Positions 51,620 to 59,427 of a stretch of 64,000 nucleotides of DNA are shown one piece after another. The stretch's first letter is position 1, and every line of letters starts with the position of its first letter. The position numbers were made by a program, and so were the translations under genes. The notes under the pieces were generated by a model, which had not been told where the DNA came from, did not search any database, and worked only from the letters and a program-made list of their open reading frames with translations. The DNA is from Prochlorococcus sp. MIT 0603 (GTDB lineage: Bacteria > Cyanobacteriota > Cyanobacteriia > PCC-6307 > Cyanobiaceae): contig NZ_JNAW01000001.1 in the NCBI RefSeq assembly GCF_000760215.1, forward strand, positions 248,001-312,000, written 5' to 3'.

Positions 51620-52400
<781 letters not shown>

Positions 52401-52451: not shown

Positions 52452-52925
52452 ATGAAATCAGCAGTTACTACAGTAATTTCATCGGCTGATGCGGCAGGTA
52501 GATTCCCTACTCTTAGCGACATCGAATCTGTTAAAGGATCTTTTGATAGAGCTTCTTCTCGATTAGAAGCAGCTGAAAAACTTTCTATTCATATAGATAG
52601 ATTTACTTCTGAGGCTTTAGATCATGTTTATTCTGGAGAAGGTGAATCGTATAATCAGGCAAATAAAGATAAATGCTCTCGAGATATTCATCATTATTTG
52701 CGACTGATTAATTACTGTTTAGTTACTGGTGGAACAGGTCCACTAGATGAATGGGGAATAGCTGGAATGCGTGAGGTAATTCGAGCTCAGTTACTTCCAA
52801 CTACAGCTTATATTGAGGCATTCACTTTTATTAGAGATAATTTAGATGTTCCTAATGATATGGGCCAACAGTCTGCGGCAGAGTTTAAGAACCTACTTGA
52901 TTATTTGATAAATGCATTAGCTTGA
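52452..52925 (+). CDS. cpeA: Phycoerythrin III alpha subunit, one bilin site
   Basis: A 157-residue phycobiliprotein (ppeA). It keeps the first chromophore cysteine (Cys75, aligned to Cys82, in NKDKCSRDIHHYLR) and the core LINYCLVTGGTGPLDEWGIA. The second bilin cysteine (Cys139 of other phycoerythrins, in RDRLCVPRDM) is replaced: RDNLDVPNDM has Asp132. About 7 residues are missing before Cys75. The chain should therefore carry one bilin, not two. Low-light Prochlorococcus is known to have such a reduced alpha chain. Co-transcribed with cpeB. Confidence 0.95.
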   Translation: MKSAVTTVISSADAAGRFPTLSDIESVKGSFDRASSRLEAAEKLSIHIDRFTSEALDHVYSGEGESYNQANKDKCSRDIHHYLRLINYCLVTGGTGPLDEWGIAGMREVIRAQLLPTTAYIEAFTFIRDNLDVPNDMGQQSAAEFKNLLDYLINALA

Positions 52926-52949: not shown

Positions 52950-53564
52950 ATGTCAGATAAGGAGGAAATACCTTCCATAGATAATATTTTTGTTGATTTT
53001 GTTCACCCAAATCCCAATATTAATCAACAAGCATTTTCAAATATGAAGAAATTTTGGCCAGAAGAGTCTATAGCCATATTGACAAAAAATTTAGATAGTA
53101 AAAATGTTGTGCTTAGGAGGAAATCTGTTAAGGCACTTGCTTCTTTTGGGAAAGCAATTGTAAAAGAGATTATTCAATTATATTTTCTTAGCAAAGAGAA
53201 TATTCAAAGAATTAGTTGCTTAAAAATCCTAACAATAGTTGCATCTTCAAATTCTCTTGATGATTTAAGAGAAGAAATCAAAAGCTTAATTGAAATTGCT
53301 ATAAAGGACGATTCAGTTGAATCTATATTAATAACAGTTTCTTTGCTCAGGCAGCTTGGAAATCAATCTCTGCCATGCTTGAAATCATTATGTAGGGATA
53401 ATAATGTATTAAGAGCAAAAGCTGCAATAACTGCATTATCTGAGATAACTGCATTATCTGAGATAACTGATCCTAGTATTAAGGATTTCCTTGTTATGAT
53501 TGCAGATGATATATCTTTGGATTCAATTGTTAGAGAAAGTGCTTTGGATGTTCTAAATAAATGA
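52950..53564 (+). CDS. cpeZ: CpeZ, phycoerythrin lyase partner/chaperone
   Basis: A 204-residue HEAT-repeat protein of the CpcE/F lyase clan. The N-terminus IFVDFVHPNPNINQQAF matches the LF.DL.HPNPN start of CpeZ, and its length equals that of CpeZ (about 205) in other cyanobacteria. In Fremyella CpeZ acts with CpeY on the alpha-82 site and as a chaperone. It lies 24 bases after cpeA on the same strand. An 18-base in-frame tandem duplication (residues about 160-171, ITALSEITALSEIT) is unusual. Confidence 0.82.
   Translation: MSDKEEIPSIDNIFVDFVHPNPNINQQAFSNMKKFWPEESIAILTKNLDSKNVVLRRKSVKALASFGKAIVKEIIQLYFLSKENIQRISCLKILTIVASSNSLDDLREEIKSLIEIAIKDDSVESILITVSLLRQLGNQSLPCLKSLCRDNNVLRAKAAITALSEITALSEITDPSIKDFLVMIADDISLDSIVRESALDVLNK
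53427..53462 (+). repeat. 18-base tandem duplication inside cpeZ
   Basis: ATAACTGCATTATCTGAG occurs twice in a row (53427-53444 and 53445-53462), with a partial third copy ATAACT. It keeps the frame and doubles the hexapeptide ITALSE. Such perfect repeats often arise by replication slippage and may vary between strains. Confidence 0.9.
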
Positions 53565-53576
53565 TTATAAATATCA

Positions 53577-54482
53577 TTATTTTGATTTAGACATGCCATC
53601 AAGATTTGATATGCATAGTTTGAGAATATTTTTCACATCTGTATCTTTTTCTTTTAAAAGTATATTATTCATGATGGCAATATGATTGATTGCTTTTAAT
53701 TTCATGAGAGTCAATGCAGACTGTCTTCTGATTTCCGGACTTGCTTCATTTAATTTTGAAGCTATAAGATTGATATCCCATTCATGATCATTAAGGAATC
53801 CTATTAATTTAATAGCTTCTATCTGTACTTCTATTGAAGGATCATTTACAGCATCGCAGAGAATTTTTTTTGCCTCTTTATCAGAAAATAATTGAATTTG
53901 GTCTCCTAGAGCAGCAATAGAAGATGCACGTACTTTCTTATTTGTTGAAAGAGCTGATCTTTTAAGCACTCTTCCTGCTCTTGCTCCAATAAAAGAAATC
54001 CCCCAGCTTGCAAGTCCGCATTGTAATTCAGAGGAATTTGGTTTCGCCAAAACTTCTATTAAAAGTTCTGCTGCTTCTTCCCCAAAGATTGCCATAGCTC
54101 CTACGGCTGAACCTTGTACTACTGGATCATGGTCATGAAGAAGTGCTTGCAGCAGGTCAGGTAAGGCAGATGGATCCCCAATAAGTTTTAGTGTTTTAGC
54201 TGCTGCTCTTCTAACCGTTACATTGCAGCTATTCAGTAAGGCATATCGAAGTTCTGGCAAAGCAGACTTGCCAATCATGCCAAGACTTTCTGAAAAAGTT
54301 CGTCTTAGGAGGCCTCTCTTGTCTCCTAGACCAGTAACTAGTTTCTTGATTAAAATTGTATCTGTTTCAGGTTTTTCTCCATCCCTTAGTTTTTTTTGCA
54401 ATTCCAAAGCAAGCTCGGAAGCTTCTTCTTCGCTCAAATCAGTTCTTTCCGGAAATTTTTTTTGGCTATTGATTTCTTTCAA
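53577..54482 (-). CDS. cpeF: CpeF/MpeX-like HEAT-repeat bilin lyase
   Basis: A 301-residue HEAT-repeat protein of the CpcE/F clan on the strand opposite to its neighbours. The stretch GLGDKRGLLRRTFSESLGMI and later NVTVRRAAAKTLKLIGDPSA and HDPVVQGSAVGAMAIFGEEA match the CpeF/MpeU/MpeV/MpeX group. CpeF attaches the doubly linked bilin to the beta subunit (Cys50/61) in Fremyella. MpeX is the name used in some Prochlorococcus annotations; which subgroup this is cannot be settled by eye. It converges on cpeZ (12 bases) and diverges from cpeY (77 bases). Confidence 0.75.
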   Translation of the reverse strand: MKEINSQKKFPERTDLSEEEASELALELQKKLRDGEKPETDTILIKKLVTGLGDKRGLLRRTFSESLGMIGKSALPELRYALLNSCNVTVRRAAAKTLKLIGDPSALPDLLQALLHDHDPVVQGSAVGAMAIFGEEAAELLIEVLAKPNSSELQCGLASWGISFIGARAGRVLKRSALSTNKKVRASSIAALGDQIQLFSDKEAKKILCDAVNDPSIEVQIEAIKLIGFLNDHEWDINLIASKLNEASPEIRRQSALTLMKLKAINHIAIMNNILLKEKDTDVKNILKLCISNLDGMSKSK

Positions 54483-54559: not shown

Positions 54560-55888
54560 ATGAACTTAGGGGCTTTTGATACTCTTCCAAAATTAAGCAA
54601 AAATGATGCTCTAAGTATTTTAAAAACCCCTTTACAAGATTTAAATCTATCTAGTGATTATTATAAAGCAGTTTTTCATCTTGCAAAATACCCCTCTCCT
54701 GAATCCGAAAAAGCTCTTTTGGATTTAGTAAAATCCCAATCTGCTGAGAAGCCTATTCTTCTTGCAAAAAGAAAAGCGATTGAAATTTTAGGACGAATGG
54801 GATCAAAAAAAGCAATACCTCATATAGCAAAAAACCTTAAGAGCTTAGACCCTTATATTGTTGAGAATTCAGCTTGGGCATTGCAACAAATTGGTTGCGA
54901 TAATATAGAAATTCATAATCTTATTGGATCTTTATTGGAGGAAAATAATCAAAACCATAGAGTTCTAATTCAGAGCTTGGCAAAGATGGGGGCAACATCA
55001 CAGTTATCTAAAATAAATGCAATTCTTAGTAGTGAGGTAATACCTATAGGTGTAAAAGGTGCTTCTATAGCAGCAATTAAAATCCTGACAGGCAAATCTC
55101 AAAATGTTGACCTGTTAAGGGATCACTTGAGTTCTGCTAATCAAAATGATCGCCAATGTGCAGTTCAAGATATTATTGATGCTAAAGAATATGACTTAAT
55201 CGAAAGCATTATTCAAACTCCAATATCTCCGTTTTTCAGATTACGAGCTATAGATTTACTTTGGCCTGAAATTAGTGATGATCGAGGAAAATCAAATGCT
55301 TTAGATTTAATTGATCTTGTTTTATTAGATAATCCAAAAGCAATAAGACCTGCTAACAAGTATCAAAAGCAAAATGAAATTAAAACATTGATAAAAAGAC
55401 TATTTAGTACAGACTTTTGCAAAGCATACTCTTCCTTGAGCTCTCTATTAGATATGAGATTTGATTATATATTCCCAGCTTTGCAAGATGAATTAAAGCG
55501 ATTTAAAAAGGATTATGGAGCCATTTACTTTCTTTTAATACTCTTAAGAAATGCTCAAATTAGTGTAGAAATACAAAGGAAAAAAAGTATGGAATTAGTA
55601 GACTATTGTTTAGATAAGTCGTGGCCTGATTTTATGAAATTTAAACCTCAAGCCATATTATTGTCTATGGAAATTGACATTGAATTCTTTACTCAAAATT
55701 TAGAATCTTGGTTAAACGAGAAGGAAACACCTTATTGGGCTTGTAGATATGCAGCGTTGATATGTGTTGAGAAACTGGTCAAGAATAATATGCTTAATAT
55801 TGATATAAAGCATGTCATTGAAAGAGTATATGATGAAAATAAATTTGTCTGCTTAAAAGCTAAGAAATTCCAATCAAAATATATTTAA
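54560..55888 (+). CDS. cpeY: CpeY, phycoerythrobilin lyase for alpha-Cys82
   Basis: A 442-residue HEAT-repeat lyase subunit; length and N-terminal domain (KAIEILGRMGSKKAIPHIAK and YIVENSAWALQQIG) fit CpeY. In Fremyella CpeY, helped by CpeZ, attaches phycoerythrobilin to alpha-Cys82, the only bilin site left on the alpha subunit here. The first half keeps the conserved repeats; the second half is more diverged. It converges on cpeT with 8 bases between the stops. Confidence 0.85.
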   Translation: MNLGAFDTLPKLSKNDALSILKTPLQDLNLSSDYYKAVFHLAKYPSPESEKALLDLVKSQSAEKPILLAKRKAIEILGRMGSKKAIPHIAKNLKSLDPYIVENSAWALQQIGCDNIEIHNLIGSLLEENNQNHRVLIQSLAKMGATSQLSKINAILSSEVIPIGVKGASIAAIKILTGKSQNVDLLRDHLSSANQNDRQCAVQDIIDAKEYDLIESIIQTPISPFFRLRAIDLLWPEISDDRGKSNALDLIDLVLLDNPKAIRPANKYQKQNEIKTLIKRLFSTDFCKAYSSLSSLLDMRFDYIFPALQDELKRFKKDYGAIYFLLILLRNAQISVEIQRKKSMELVDYCLDKSWPDFMKFKPQAILLSMEIDIEFFTQNLESWLNEKETPYWACRYAALICVEKLVKNNMLNIDIKHVIERVYDENKFVCLKAKKFQSKYI

Positions 55889-55896
55889 TATTTAGA

Positions 55897-56472
55897 TTAA
55901 CGTATTTTTTCAAACTCGAAAAAGCCATCCTCTAATCCCCATAATCTTTTATTTGTTTCAATATCGAATCCTTGATCTATAGTTTTGAATTTGCTCTTAT
56001 TAAACTTCACCTTGCTCACTAAATATGTTTTCCTACCATCTCTCTCTACAATACATTTACCAGCTTTTTTTAAAGATCCAACATATGTTCCTTTGCTTAT
56101 CTCTTTAAATTTCATTTGGCAATTTTTTCTAATTAAGAGATTTTCTTTTTTAATTGATAATAGAATCTGTTTGTTAAAGCCTGCACCTGCAAATCTTTCC
56201 GATGGATATATTTCATAGTTCTCTAATAACAAATTATTTTCATCAGTTGATAATTTATGGACAGCTTGTCTATACGGTGACCAAGGTGAATAGTTATAAC
56301 TTTGCTCCGAATATAAGCTAATACTTTGAAACAACTCCCATGGTAGAAGTCTAAAGTATATGTTGATATGTGCGTATACTTTAGGCTGTTTTTGAGCTTG
56401 TTTCTTATTACTATAACTCCCACAAAGTGTATTCAGAAACCTAGTAATTTTCTTATCATGCTCTCCATTCAT
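55897..56472 (-). CDS. cpeT: CpeT, bilin lyase for beta-Cys165-type site
   Basis: A 191-residue lyase of the CpcT/CpeT family. The hallmark series is LCGSYSNKKQAQKQPKVYAH, then FRLLPWELFQSISLYSEQSY and SPYRQAVHKL. In Fremyella CpeT attaches phycoerythrobilin to beta-Cys165; the matching cysteine here is beta-Cys163. It lies 10 bases after cpeS on the same strand. Confidence 0.93.
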   Translation of the reverse strand: MNGEHDKKITRFLNTLCGSYSNKKQAQKQPKVYAHINIYFRLLPWELFQSISLYSEQSYNYSPWSPYRQAVHKLSTDENNLLLENYEIYPSERFAGAGFNKQILLSIKKENLLIRKNCQMKFKEISKGTYVGSLKKAGKCIVERDGRKTYLVSKVKFNKSKFKTIDQGFDIETNKRLWGLEDGFFEFEKIR

Positions 56473-56482
56473 GGCTTCATCC

Positions 56483-57010
56483 TTATTCGTTAATTATACG
56501 TATTTCTGAGGCAAAGGAAGTTTGAAGAATTCCCTTTGATTCTTTTGAAAAAAGAACGGAGGAACGGCATCTTGTATTTGAGTTAATGAACCAAATACGT
56601 TCTTCTGCAATTATTTGCTCGTATTCGGTTGATAGAACGAAAGTATGATCTGAAAGAAATTTGTATTTTGAGATTGCACTTCCTTTTTCAGCATATCCTG
56701 CGCTCCTTAAAATAATTCCTTCATTATTAGAGTTTGGAATAGGAATCAATAGGCTTGATCCACTTAAAGTATCATCATTGCCATCCCAGTTAGATTCTCC
56801 TTCCCAAAAAATTTCGAATGGAGATGGAGTCTCGCGTTCTGAATATCCATTTTTTTTCAAAAAATCTATAACTTTTGAGTCTTCTTTTGGAATTTGTTTG
56901 ATTTTGATAGTGCTAATAACTTCTTCAAATTGTTTAAATGCTAATGAGTGCCCACTTCTCATTGAAACCCATTCTCCTTGGCTTTTAGCTACAAATGTCT
57001 CAATCTCCAT
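56483..57010 (-). CDS. cpeS: CpeS, bilin lyase for beta-Cys82-type site
   Basis: A 175-residue lipocalin-like lyase of the CpcS/CpeS family. Signatures are FVAKSQGEWVSMRSGHSLAF at the N-terminus and EERIWFINSNTRCRSSVLFS and LQTSFASEIR at the C-terminus. CpeS attaches phycoerythrobilin to beta-Cys82. The start ATG 57010 overlaps the end of the 62-residue gene by 11 bases, so the two may be translationally coupled. Confidence 0.93.
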   Translation of the reverse strand: MEIETFVAKSQGEWVSMRSGHSLAFKQFEEVISTIKIKQIPKEDSKVIDFLKKNGYSERETPSPFEIFWEGESNWDGNDDTLSGSSLLIPIPNSNNEGIILRSAGYAEKGSAISKYKFLSDHTFVLSTEYEQIIAEERIWFINSNTRCRSSVLFSKESKGILQTSFASEIRIINE

Positions 57011-57188
57011 TTGTAGTATTTAATGACTCTTCAGAATCTAGTGAGGTTTTATTATTACTACCTTTTTGAATCATTCTTACCATAGAGTTAACCATCATTG
57101 ACATGGCCATAGGGACTTTTTTCCCTGAAGGTGTTTGTGATGATCTATTTCCTGGCCTTTCGTTGGAAGAAGTCTTTTTTATAGTCAT
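57000..57188 (-). CDS. 62-residue basic protein of the phycoerythrin operon
   Basis: A small polar protein, MTIKKTSSNERPGNRSSQTP at the start, a Met-rich middle (VPMAMSMMVNSMVRMIQKGS) that could form one amphipathic helix, and an acidic end. It sits between ppeC (15 bases) and cpeS (11-base overlap) in the same orientation, which supports a real gene. No family recognised; a linker or assembly role is only a guess. The 15 bases before its ATG carry CCTCCTCC on the coding strand rather than a ribosome site. Confidence 0.6.
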   Translation of the reverse strand: MTIKKTSSNERPGNRSSQTPSGKKVPMAMSMMVNSMVRMIQKGSNNKTSLDSEESLNTTNGD

Positions 57189-58041: not shown

Positions 58042-59427
58042 TCATTCTAGCTCCGACATTATTAACGTTTCCATTTTAGCAGAAGTTTCCTTTTTGAATT
58101 TGTTAACATTTACATAGTTAAGTATTAATATTGAAGATAAAACTATAATTATTTCTACAGTGAATACAAATGCAAAGGCAGATAAAGGATTGTCCTGACC
58201 GCTGAAAATTCTACCTAAATCAAGTAGTCCACCTCCCATTAGCTTCCCCATCGCTCTTGACAAGGCTTGTGCTAGACCCCATACGCCTACGAAGGTTCCT
58301 GCTACTTGAGGAAGGGTAAGATCAAGCATCAAAGATAATGCACTGTTTGTTGCTATTCCAGCAGCTATGCCAAATATAAATAAGATGCCAAATAGTAAAT
58401 TACTATTGCCAATAACACCACTAAGTATTATTAGTCCTAAAGAATAAGCAATCATCCAGCATCCAAGCTTTGCTGCTGAATATTTACCTATTCTAGGTAT
58501 TATTAATAACCCACCAATTAATAATCCTACTAATGTGCCTATACCCCAATAGGCATTAAGCAATGTAGTTTTTGAAATAGGCAAACTAAATACTTCAGCA
58601 CCGAAGCTTTCTAAAATTGGATCTTGAAGAAAAAGACCTAACGTATAAAAGATTAAGAAACTAAAGAAAATAAATATTTGTTTGCTTGAAGTAATTAGAG
58701 ACCATGCATCTCTTAATCCTATCTCTTTGCTTTTACTAGTAAGAGTTTTATATGCCTTATGTTCACTTTTTTCTATGCCCCAGCATGAAAGTATTGCTAT
58801 TGCGAAAATAATCCCACTAACCTTAATCATAAATTGTTGAAGTGTTGGTTGGAGCAAACTTGGATCTGTAATCCCATCAAGGTTCTTGGTTGTAATAGAT
58901 ATCGCTATTGCCCCAATTACAATTCCAATCGTTAGCATGCACCAAATCACACCAACAGCTTTAGGCCTTTCCTTTTCATTAGTCAGATCAATAATTAGAG
59001 CCAAATAAGGTGTTGTAGCCATTGAGATTGCTAACCCATATAAAGCAAAAAGAGAGCAAAGACCAATCACACTTATTGCAATTGCTGTTAACGAACCCTG
59101 TGTTAACGATCTTTCAGTTAAGAAAATTATGGGTATTGATAAAACAGCTAAAAAACAGAAACCTGCTGAGCCTAAATAAATATATGGGGTTCTTTTCCGA
59201 CCTTTTATTGGCCAGCTATCTGAAATGTTTCCAAATAGGACCCTTGAAGGTGCAACCAACTGTTCAAAAGCTAGCCCACCTCCCACAAGAATAGCTGGGA
59301 ATGCGAGTTCAGTAATCATTATGCGATTAAGCATCCCAGCAAAAATTACTGCTAGGCAGCCTAAACACCCTTGAAATAAGCTAAGCCTAAAGAGCTGAAG
59401 GTTTGGTAATTGTTTTGTGTTTTCCAA
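58042..59427 (-). CDS. PucC/BCH2-family major facilitator transporter
   Basis: A 461-residue membrane protein with about 12 helices and the PUCC-family hallmarks FEQLVAPSRVLFGNISDSWP and KGRKRTPYIYLGSAGFCFLA. The family, found in phototrophs, is tied to light-harvesting complex assembly and chlorophyll delivery (PucC, LhaA in purple bacteria). It reads into ppeC, cpeS and cpeT and thus probably belongs to their operon. The substrate is unknown. Confidence 0.9.
   Translation of the reverse strand: MENTKQLPNLQLFRLSLFQGCLGCLAVIFAGMLNRIMITELAFPAILVGGGLAFEQLVAPSRVLFGNISDSWPIKGRKRTPYIYLGSAGFCFLAVLSIPIIFLTERSLTQGSLTAIAISVIGLCSLFALYGLAISMATTPYLALIIDLTNEKERPKAVGVIWCMLTIGIVIGAIAISITTKNLDGITDPSLLQPTLQQFMIKVSGIIFAIAILSCWGIEKSEHKAYKTLTSKSKEIGLRDAWSLITSSKQIFIFFSFLIFYTLGLFLQDPILESFGAEVFSLPISKTTLLNAYWGIGTLVGLLIGGLLIIPRIGKYSAAKLGCWMIAYSLGLIILSGVIGNSNLLFGILFIFGIAAGIATNSALSLMLDLTLPQVAGTFVGVWGLAQALSRAMGKLMGGGLLDLGRIFSGQDNPLSAFAFVFTVEIIIVLSSILILNYVNVNKFKKETSAKMETLIMSELE

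Follow-up and report, generated by a model that had tools for sequence, protein, structure and literature searches.

Repeated loss of the alpha-139 bilin cysteine of Prochlorococcus phycoerythrin beside an unchanged set of lyase families

Phycoerythrin III, in which phycourobilin is the major chromophore, was reportedly described by Hess in 1996 from strain CCMP 1375 (SS120) with a single bilin site on its alpha chain. An excerpt of a later paper repeats, citing Hess 1996, that the alpha chain of phycoerythrin III bears only one chromophore, and a legend in the same excerpt gives no chromophore on the beta chain for a high-light strain (PMC2327270). Excerpted text of another study treats ppeA together with cpeFTZY as one low-light-specific phycoerythrin III module (PMC10119275). 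With regard to the enzymes, the hypothesis that each bilin site has its own lyase is reported in an excerpt that also lists MpeX, from low-light Prochlorococcus, as a still uncharacterised protein of the MpeV family (PMC7948978).

Here we analysed a 64,000-nucleotide stretch of the genome of Prochlorococcus sp. MIT 0603 (the window). A previous sequence-only reading of this DNA had noticed an alpha-phycoerythrin with one bilin site left and had added that such a reduced phycoerythrin III is known from low-light Prochlorococcus; the excerpts of PMC2327270 and PMC10119275 agree with it on this point, and the core finding, an alpha chain reduced to one bilin cysteine, is already known as phycoerythrin III. 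What the comparison with relatives adds is a sharper, testable question of how the second alpha site, alpha-139, gets charged.

The phycoerythrin cluster of MIT 0603

The cpeB gene was found upstream of cpeA, followed downstream by cpeZ, mpeX, cpeY, cpeT, cpeS, a linker gene and a pucC-family gene (Table 1), and the five lyase-type genes (CpeY, CpeZ, CpeF type, CpeS and CpeT) were present as had been described from the letters. The cpeZ product gave no NCBIfam match, and its name rests on position and similarity; CpeY did not reach its equivalog cut-off (227.8 bits against 600) and was called CpeY-like by similarity and cluster position. A 62-aa open reading frame directly upstream of cpeS (window 57000-57188, minus strand) occupies the place of unk6 and gave no NCBIfam match; unk6 is a tiny gene said, in an excerpt of PMC2246261, to be present in all Prochlorococcus strains. 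Promoter and terminator scans of the DNA returned about what shuffled sequences give.

Table 1. Features of the phycoerythrin cluster, in positions of the window
Feature	Position	Strand	Evidence
cpeB, beta-phycoerythrin, 182 aa; bilin cysteines Cys50/61, Cys82 and Cys163 (standard 165) all present; Ile141	51852..52400	+	NCBIfam CpeB 311.7 bits, cut-off 275
beta-Ile141 codon	52272..52274	+	Ile in 84/84 distinct Prochlorococcus-type loci; Synechococcus-type His 6, Leu 4
cpeA (ppeA), alpha-phycoerythrin III, one bilin site; open reading frame of exactly this span, 157 aa plus stop	52452..52925	+	NCBIfam CpeA 259.3 bits, equivalog cut-off 225
shortened stretch before Cys75, about residues 59-69, common to Prochlorococcus with and without Cys139	52626..52658	+	
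Cys75 codon (standard alpha-82), remaining alpha bilin site	52674..52676	+	Cys in 84/84 distinct Prochlorococcus-type loci
Asp132 codon, replacing bilin cysteine alpha-139	52845..52847	+	alignment with Synechococcus-type CpeA
cpeZ, HEAT-repeat chaperone-like lyase partner	52950..53564	+	HEAT_2; 25-34% identity matches in 9/10 Synechococcus-type loci
mpeX, CpeF/MpeV-family lyase, predicted for beta-50/61	53577..54482	-	family match, tree, pocket residues
cpeY, predicted lyase for alpha-82 (Cys75)	54560..55888	+	best NCBIfam model CpeY, E 1.7e-67
cpeT, predicted lyase for beta-165 (Cys163)	55897..56472	-	Pfam CpeT 184.9 bits; sole CpeT match genome-wide
cpeS, predicted lyase for beta-82	56483..57010	-	Pfam CpeS 179.7 bits; sole CpeS-family match genome-wide
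phycoerythrin-associated linker (PBS_linker_poly), 264 aa	57204..57998	-	Pfam PF00427 144 bits
PucC-family membrane protein adjoining linker	58042..59427	-	Pfam PUCC 443 bits

The alignment with Synechococcus-type CpeA set Cys75 against Cys82 and Asp132 against Cys139, which confirmed Asp132 as the replacement of the second chromophore cysteine. The only other cysteine of the alpha chain is Cys89; as it is also present in 9/10 two-site Synechococcus-type chains, it is no new anchor, and the single-site reading stood after this check for an alternative cysteine. A single bilin-binding cysteine on alpha with Asp at the 139 equivalent, and a sole phycobiliprotein without phycocyanin or allophycocyanin (the two PF00502 matches of the genome being cpeB and cpeA), place the complex in phycoerythrin III. 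The predicted CpeA structure (mean pLDDT 84.6) matched phycoerythrin alpha chains in a fold comparison (best Z 20.9), in confirmation of the phycoerythrin alpha fold.

The deletion of about 7 residues before Cys75 that had been noticed earlier was found as well, since the chain has 157 aa and all ten Synechococcus-type loci have 164 aa, seven more; full-length phycoerythrin alpha chains listed in the PDB are also 164 aa. A short alpha chain (155-157 aa) is, however, equally present in loci that keep Cys139, so the shortening was rejected as a part of the site loss. Most distinct Prochlorococcus-type CpeA (79/84) have 155 aa, and MIT 0603 has two extra residues before Cys75 (52626-52658).

The whole MIT 0603 genome (G000, 1.75 Mb) gave two phycobiliprotein matches, one CpeT, one CpeS and three bilin reductases, so that the proposed genome-wide search for further S- or T-type lyases ended with one of each. 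HEAT-repeat frames above the Pfam cut-off were three in the cluster and one elsewhere, and a 136-aa HEAT frame scored below it. The frame elsewhere encodes the 269-aa HEAT protein above that cut-off (G000:C4:150285-150848; locus L004 1111-1920, minus strand) with weak matches to CpcF (33 bits, cut-off 220) and to NblB, the latter also far below its cut-off. The four high-light genomes examined also have HEAT frames of this size class (256-278 aa), so this protein does not seem to follow alpha-139.

MIT 0603, a low-light Prochlorococcus, has one phycoerythrin III cluster, and it lies in the window. The alpha chain offers room for one bilin, at Cys75, and the beta chain for three, namely a doubly linked one at Cys50/61 and those at Cys82 and Cys163. 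By analogy with other organisms, CpeY with CpeZ would charge alpha-Cys75, MpeX beta-50/61, CpeS beta-82 and CpeT beta-163, and the correspondence between these lyases and the four remaining kinds of site held good for MIT 0603.

The alpha-139 site and the lyases in relatives

Overlapping sets of 60 genome stretches and 67 named picocyanobacterial loci gave, with the window, 128 loci, 94 of them distinct. Sorted by CpeA length, these were 84 Prochlorococcus-type loci (short alpha chain) and 10 Synechococcus-type loci, and a tree from which cpeA had been left out separated the two types with support 100. Two loci of filamentous cyanobacteria (L244 and L245) were left out of all counts. L233 and L235, whose contigs end in or near cpeA, were left out of the trees and column scans, and L235 also of the residue counts around Cys139, where the loci without this cysteine (losers) therefore number 51 and not 52 as elsewhere; loci with it are called keepers. 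The low-light or high-light assignment of clades is our assumption, made from genome size and gene content. The 84 rows are distinct sequences and not independent events, as 28 of them belong to one clade with a cysteine at position 47, which we take to be NATL-like. This Cys47 clade includes L092, L095, L100, L191, L200 and others, and in L092 (AG-409-D09) a further cysteine stands at 131, immediately ahead of the lost position.

Alpha Cys75 and beta Cys50, Cys61, Cys82 and Cys163 were present in all 84 distinct Prochlorococcus-type loci. The alpha-139 equivalent was Cys in 10/10 Synechococcus-type loci and, among the 84, Cys in 32, Lys in 25, Asn in 9, Asp in 8, Gln in 3, Glu, Ala and Ser in 2 each and Val in 1. 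The same five lyase-type proteins (CpeZ, MpeX, CpeY, CpeT and CpeS) were found in the 32 keepers and the 52 losers wherever the contigs reach; at least one was unmatched in 3/32 keepers and 4/52 losers, every case at a contig end. Thirty genomes were searched whole; the 22 low-light ones among them (8 with Cys139, 13 without, 1 untyped) all had one CpeS and one CpeT. In each of the four Synechococcus-type genomes the CpeS family was matched three times in full and once in part, and CpeT twice; the Synechococcus CpeS family includes CpeU according to an excerpt of PMC2246261. When 7 keepers were compared with 7 losers, no HEAT-type frame above the Pfam cut-off was confined to keepers, the frames being matched by length only, among the matches listed (E up to about 0.03).

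It had been proposed from the window that site loss and lyase content evolved together, with an alignment of cpeA across Prochlorococcus and Synechococcus as the check. That alignment went against the proposal: 32/84 Prochlorococcus-type loci keep Cys139 with the same five proteins wherever the contigs reach, so lyase presence does not follow the site across relatives, and coupled evolution fails for alpha-139. Because keepers and losers share the lyase set, the agreement of four lyases with four kinds of site in the window does not record a lyase lost jointly with alpha-139; it is the remainder after one site was lost from a system of four lyases and five sites. The reduction in S- and T-type lyases preceded the alpha-139 loss, since keepers have one CpeS and one CpeT among the same five proteins.

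In order to follow the site through time, the cysteine label was placed on a tree built from CpeB together with the five lyase-type proteins, without cpeA, where it needed five changes, two of the changes being forced by well-supported branches. A second IQ-TREE tree of 70 rows, thinned by removing most near-identical rows of the Cys47 clade, gave six changes, four of them forced. We read the changes as losses, because Cys139 is retained both in the Synechococcus-type rows and in the deepest Prochlorococcus branch, that of MIT 0701 and its relatives. The largest loss takes in the clade of the window and the Cys47 clade; on the second tree the keeper L223 sits in an unresolved fork at its base, and support is weak for the deeper forks in either tree. 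On this reading the Prochlorococcus ancestor had alpha-139, and several losses followed, among them one in the lineage of MIT 0603, with subsequent change of the surrounding residues and a constant lyase set. A site switched off more than once while the lyase families stay constant is a natural experiment, in which the loss of a chromophore site is separated from the loss of its enzyme.

Around the site, Arg130, Pro134, Arg135 and Asp136 (standard Arg137, Pro141, Arg142 and Asp143) were each invariant in 32/32 keepers; among the 51 losers, Arg130 was found in 5, Pro134 in 21, Arg135 in 2 and Asp136 in 15. Arg128 and Met137 were invariant in keepers and losers alike. CpeA outside this stretch (residues 59-70 left out) diverges alike in the two classes (0.144 vs 0.139), so the change around alpha-139 is local. 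A column scan was then applied, in which a column counted if 70% or more of the large losing clade, and two or more of the four single-row losers, had departed from the keeper residue; columns 47, 51, 54 and 135 of CpeA changed with Cys132 in this sense. With column 132 itself set aside, none of 500 random draws of four keepers gave four such columns, the maximum being three, and columns 47, 51 and 54 lie on the long second helix of the predicted CpeA model. The same scan, which has low power, found no such columns in CpeB or the five lyase-type proteins.

Branch lengths without Cys139, relative to those with it, were 0.87-0.98 for the lyase-type proteins (0.98 for MpeX against 0.87-0.90 for the others), 1.07 for CpeB and 1.30 for CpeA, and a shift in lyase rate after the alpha-139 loss was sought in these branch lengths without result. 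The four single-row losers retain most of the neighbouring residues (Arg130 3/4, Pro134 4/4, Asp136 3/4) and differ mainly at 47, 51 and 135; the heavy erosion thus stems for the most part from a single old loss. All in all, alpha-139 looks maintained wherever its cysteine is, which would be best explained by bilin attachment, and no enzyme other than CpeY, MpeX, CpeS and CpeT, with CpeZ, came to light for it.

The linker protein measured 260-281 aa in most rows without Cys139 (43/47) and, in the 23 keepers whose linker was matched over its full length, 285-326 aa; no linker match was obtained in the MIT 0701-like loci L106-L109.

How alpha-139 may be charged

Taken together, we consider it highly probable that alpha-139 was lost repeatedly, with local decay around the lost site and unchanged lyases, from a system that probably had no dedicated alpha-139 lyase. 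If each site instead had its own lyase and that of alpha-139 disappeared with the site, the four lyases and four kinds of site of MIT 0603 would be expected, as would the additional CpeS-family and CpeT matches of the four Synechococcus-type genomes and the joint absence of lyases and sites in the high-light clade. The 32/84 loci that keep Cys139 and its neighbouring residues next to the same five proteins, and the single CpeS and single CpeT in 8/8 Cys139 genomes checked, already contradict this for the known lyase families and leave it improbable; keepers may have a lyase of another family. It is also rather unlikely that the cysteine of the keepers is an uncharged left-over, drifting since an alpha-139 lyase was lost in the Prochlorococcus ancestor. 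The repeated loss of the cysteine and the failure to find a dedicated lyase would suit such a history, but drift would have eroded the four neighbouring residues in keepers too, and these are invariant in 32/32 keepers that span the deepest and many other branches.

Some losers might have moved the second alpha bilin to the new Cys47. This cysteine occurs in 28/51 losers, which form exactly one clade, and in 0/32 keepers and 0/10 Synechococcus-type rows, and position 47 changes together with Cys139. Against such a move, which we regard as very unlikely, Arg130, Pro134, Arg135 and Asp136 are each found in 0/28 of the Cys47 rows, a single origin and close relatedness can explain the fixation, and MIT 0603, with His47, lies outside its reach.

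Before the loss, and to this day in the relatives with Cys139, four lyases face five sites. Judged from the conservation around it, Cys139 would bear a bilin in keepers, which probably use the site without a dedicated lyase: one of the four lyases would take it as a second target, or its bilin would need no enzyme for attachment. We give about even chances to the full form of this proposal, in which CpeY, MpeX, CpeS and CpeT with the helper CpeZ are all that the five sites have, so that either one of these enzymes handles two different kinds of site or the alpha-139 bilin attaches spontaneously. No assignment of an alpha-139 lyase was found in the portions of the literature that were searched, and CpeS is said to have attached bilin very poorly at Cys139 of Fremyella CpeA (work of Biswas, 2011). 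If true, the proposal breaks the working hypothesis of one lyase per site, and the keeper strains become a very small natural system for finding the alpha-139 enzyme, the search for which narrows there to four candidates.

Comparison with described lyases and phycoerythrins

The MpeX of the window belongs to the MpeX branch, one branch (support 99) by which 81 Prochlorococcus-type rows are set apart from 10 Synechococcus-type rows. The pocket residues R57, R89, D116 and S122 of modelled MpeV correspond to R60, R92, D119 and S125 of MpeX, which were conserved in 80/82 (R60) and 82/82 (each of the others). MpeX therefore shares the pocket-lining residues with the MpeV/CpeF lyases of Synechococcus and Fremyella, but forms a separate clade. 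According to an excerpt of PMC9705338, His141 of WH8020 CpeB blocks the formation of phycourobilin at beta-50/61 by MpeV, and Leu allows it. By this analogy MpeX is predicted to attach the doubly linked bilin at beta-50/61, and phycourobilin is the likely chromophore predicted there, because beta-141 is not His (it is Ile) and the MpeX pocket is conserved.

We rejected a reading of mpeX as a decayed pseudogene in certain relatives, as the seven stops in G003 arose from two overlapping matches in two frames. One frame change splits mpeX in G003 and likewise in G010, both single-cell genomes, and a sequencing error is as likely as a pseudogene for the split gene. The loci with mpeX split by one frame change are L066/L179 and L075/L186 (AG-363-C02 and AG-436-M02), and beta-50 and beta-61 are kept in them. 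Single apparent stops in L077, L096, L105 and L091 were end codons that lie within the match or close to where it stops, and cpeZ ends some residues early in L105 and L091.

High-light Prochlorococcus gave a different picture, with one phycobiliprotein match in 35 of 41 genomes, none in 6 and two in 0. At the 25 loci where CpeB was read, out of the 35 genomes with a match, residue 50 was Ala in 25/25, Cys61 and Cys82 were kept in 25/25, and residue 163 was Leu in 24 with a gap in 1. CpeT was found in 0/41 high-light genomes; CpeS was retained in 4/4 examined, and HEAT frames of the size of CpeY, CpeZ or MpeX were absent from these four, where only frames of 256-278 aa occurred. Lyase loss therefore does go with site loss in the high-light clade, where CpeS is kept and CpeT, beta-50 and beta-163 are absent, in agreement with the excerpt of PMC10119275. 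The beta-only phycoerythrin of these strains is of the same family as that of MIT 0603 and shares CpeS, beta-82 and beta-61 with it; it differs in having at most one phycobiliprotein gene, Ala50, Leu163 and no CpeT. This suggests an order in which the short alpha chain and the reduction of S- and T-type lyases came before the loss of alpha-139 in several branches, and the high-light strains last lost their alpha chain along with beta-50, beta-163 and every lyase except CpeS.

Compared with the phycoerythrin III of SS120, MIT 0603 has the same single alpha bilin site and two residues more before Cys75 (157 vs 155 aa), which is no difference in kind; its nearest relative in our set (G001, alpha chain 89% identical), presumably SS120 itself, also has Asp at the lost site. 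The beta chain of MIT 0603, with all bilin cysteines present, does not fit the missing beta chromophore in the legend of PMC2327270, nor do its low-light relatives fit the high-light strain given there. The phycoerythrin I (CpeA/CpeB) of marine Synechococcus shares alpha-82, all beta bilin cysteines and the families CpeY, CpeZ, CpeF/MpeV, CpeS and CpeT with MIT 0603, and differs by Cys at alpha-139 and a 164-aa alpha chain in 10/10 loci, by His or Leu at beta-141, and by more CpeS- and CpeT-family proteins in 4/4 genomes. The two-site phycoerythrin of other low-light Prochlorococcus, such as MIT 0701 (locus L240), has the same short alpha chain and the same five lyase-type genes as MIT 0603, and differs from it in that Cys139 and the adjoining residues are kept.
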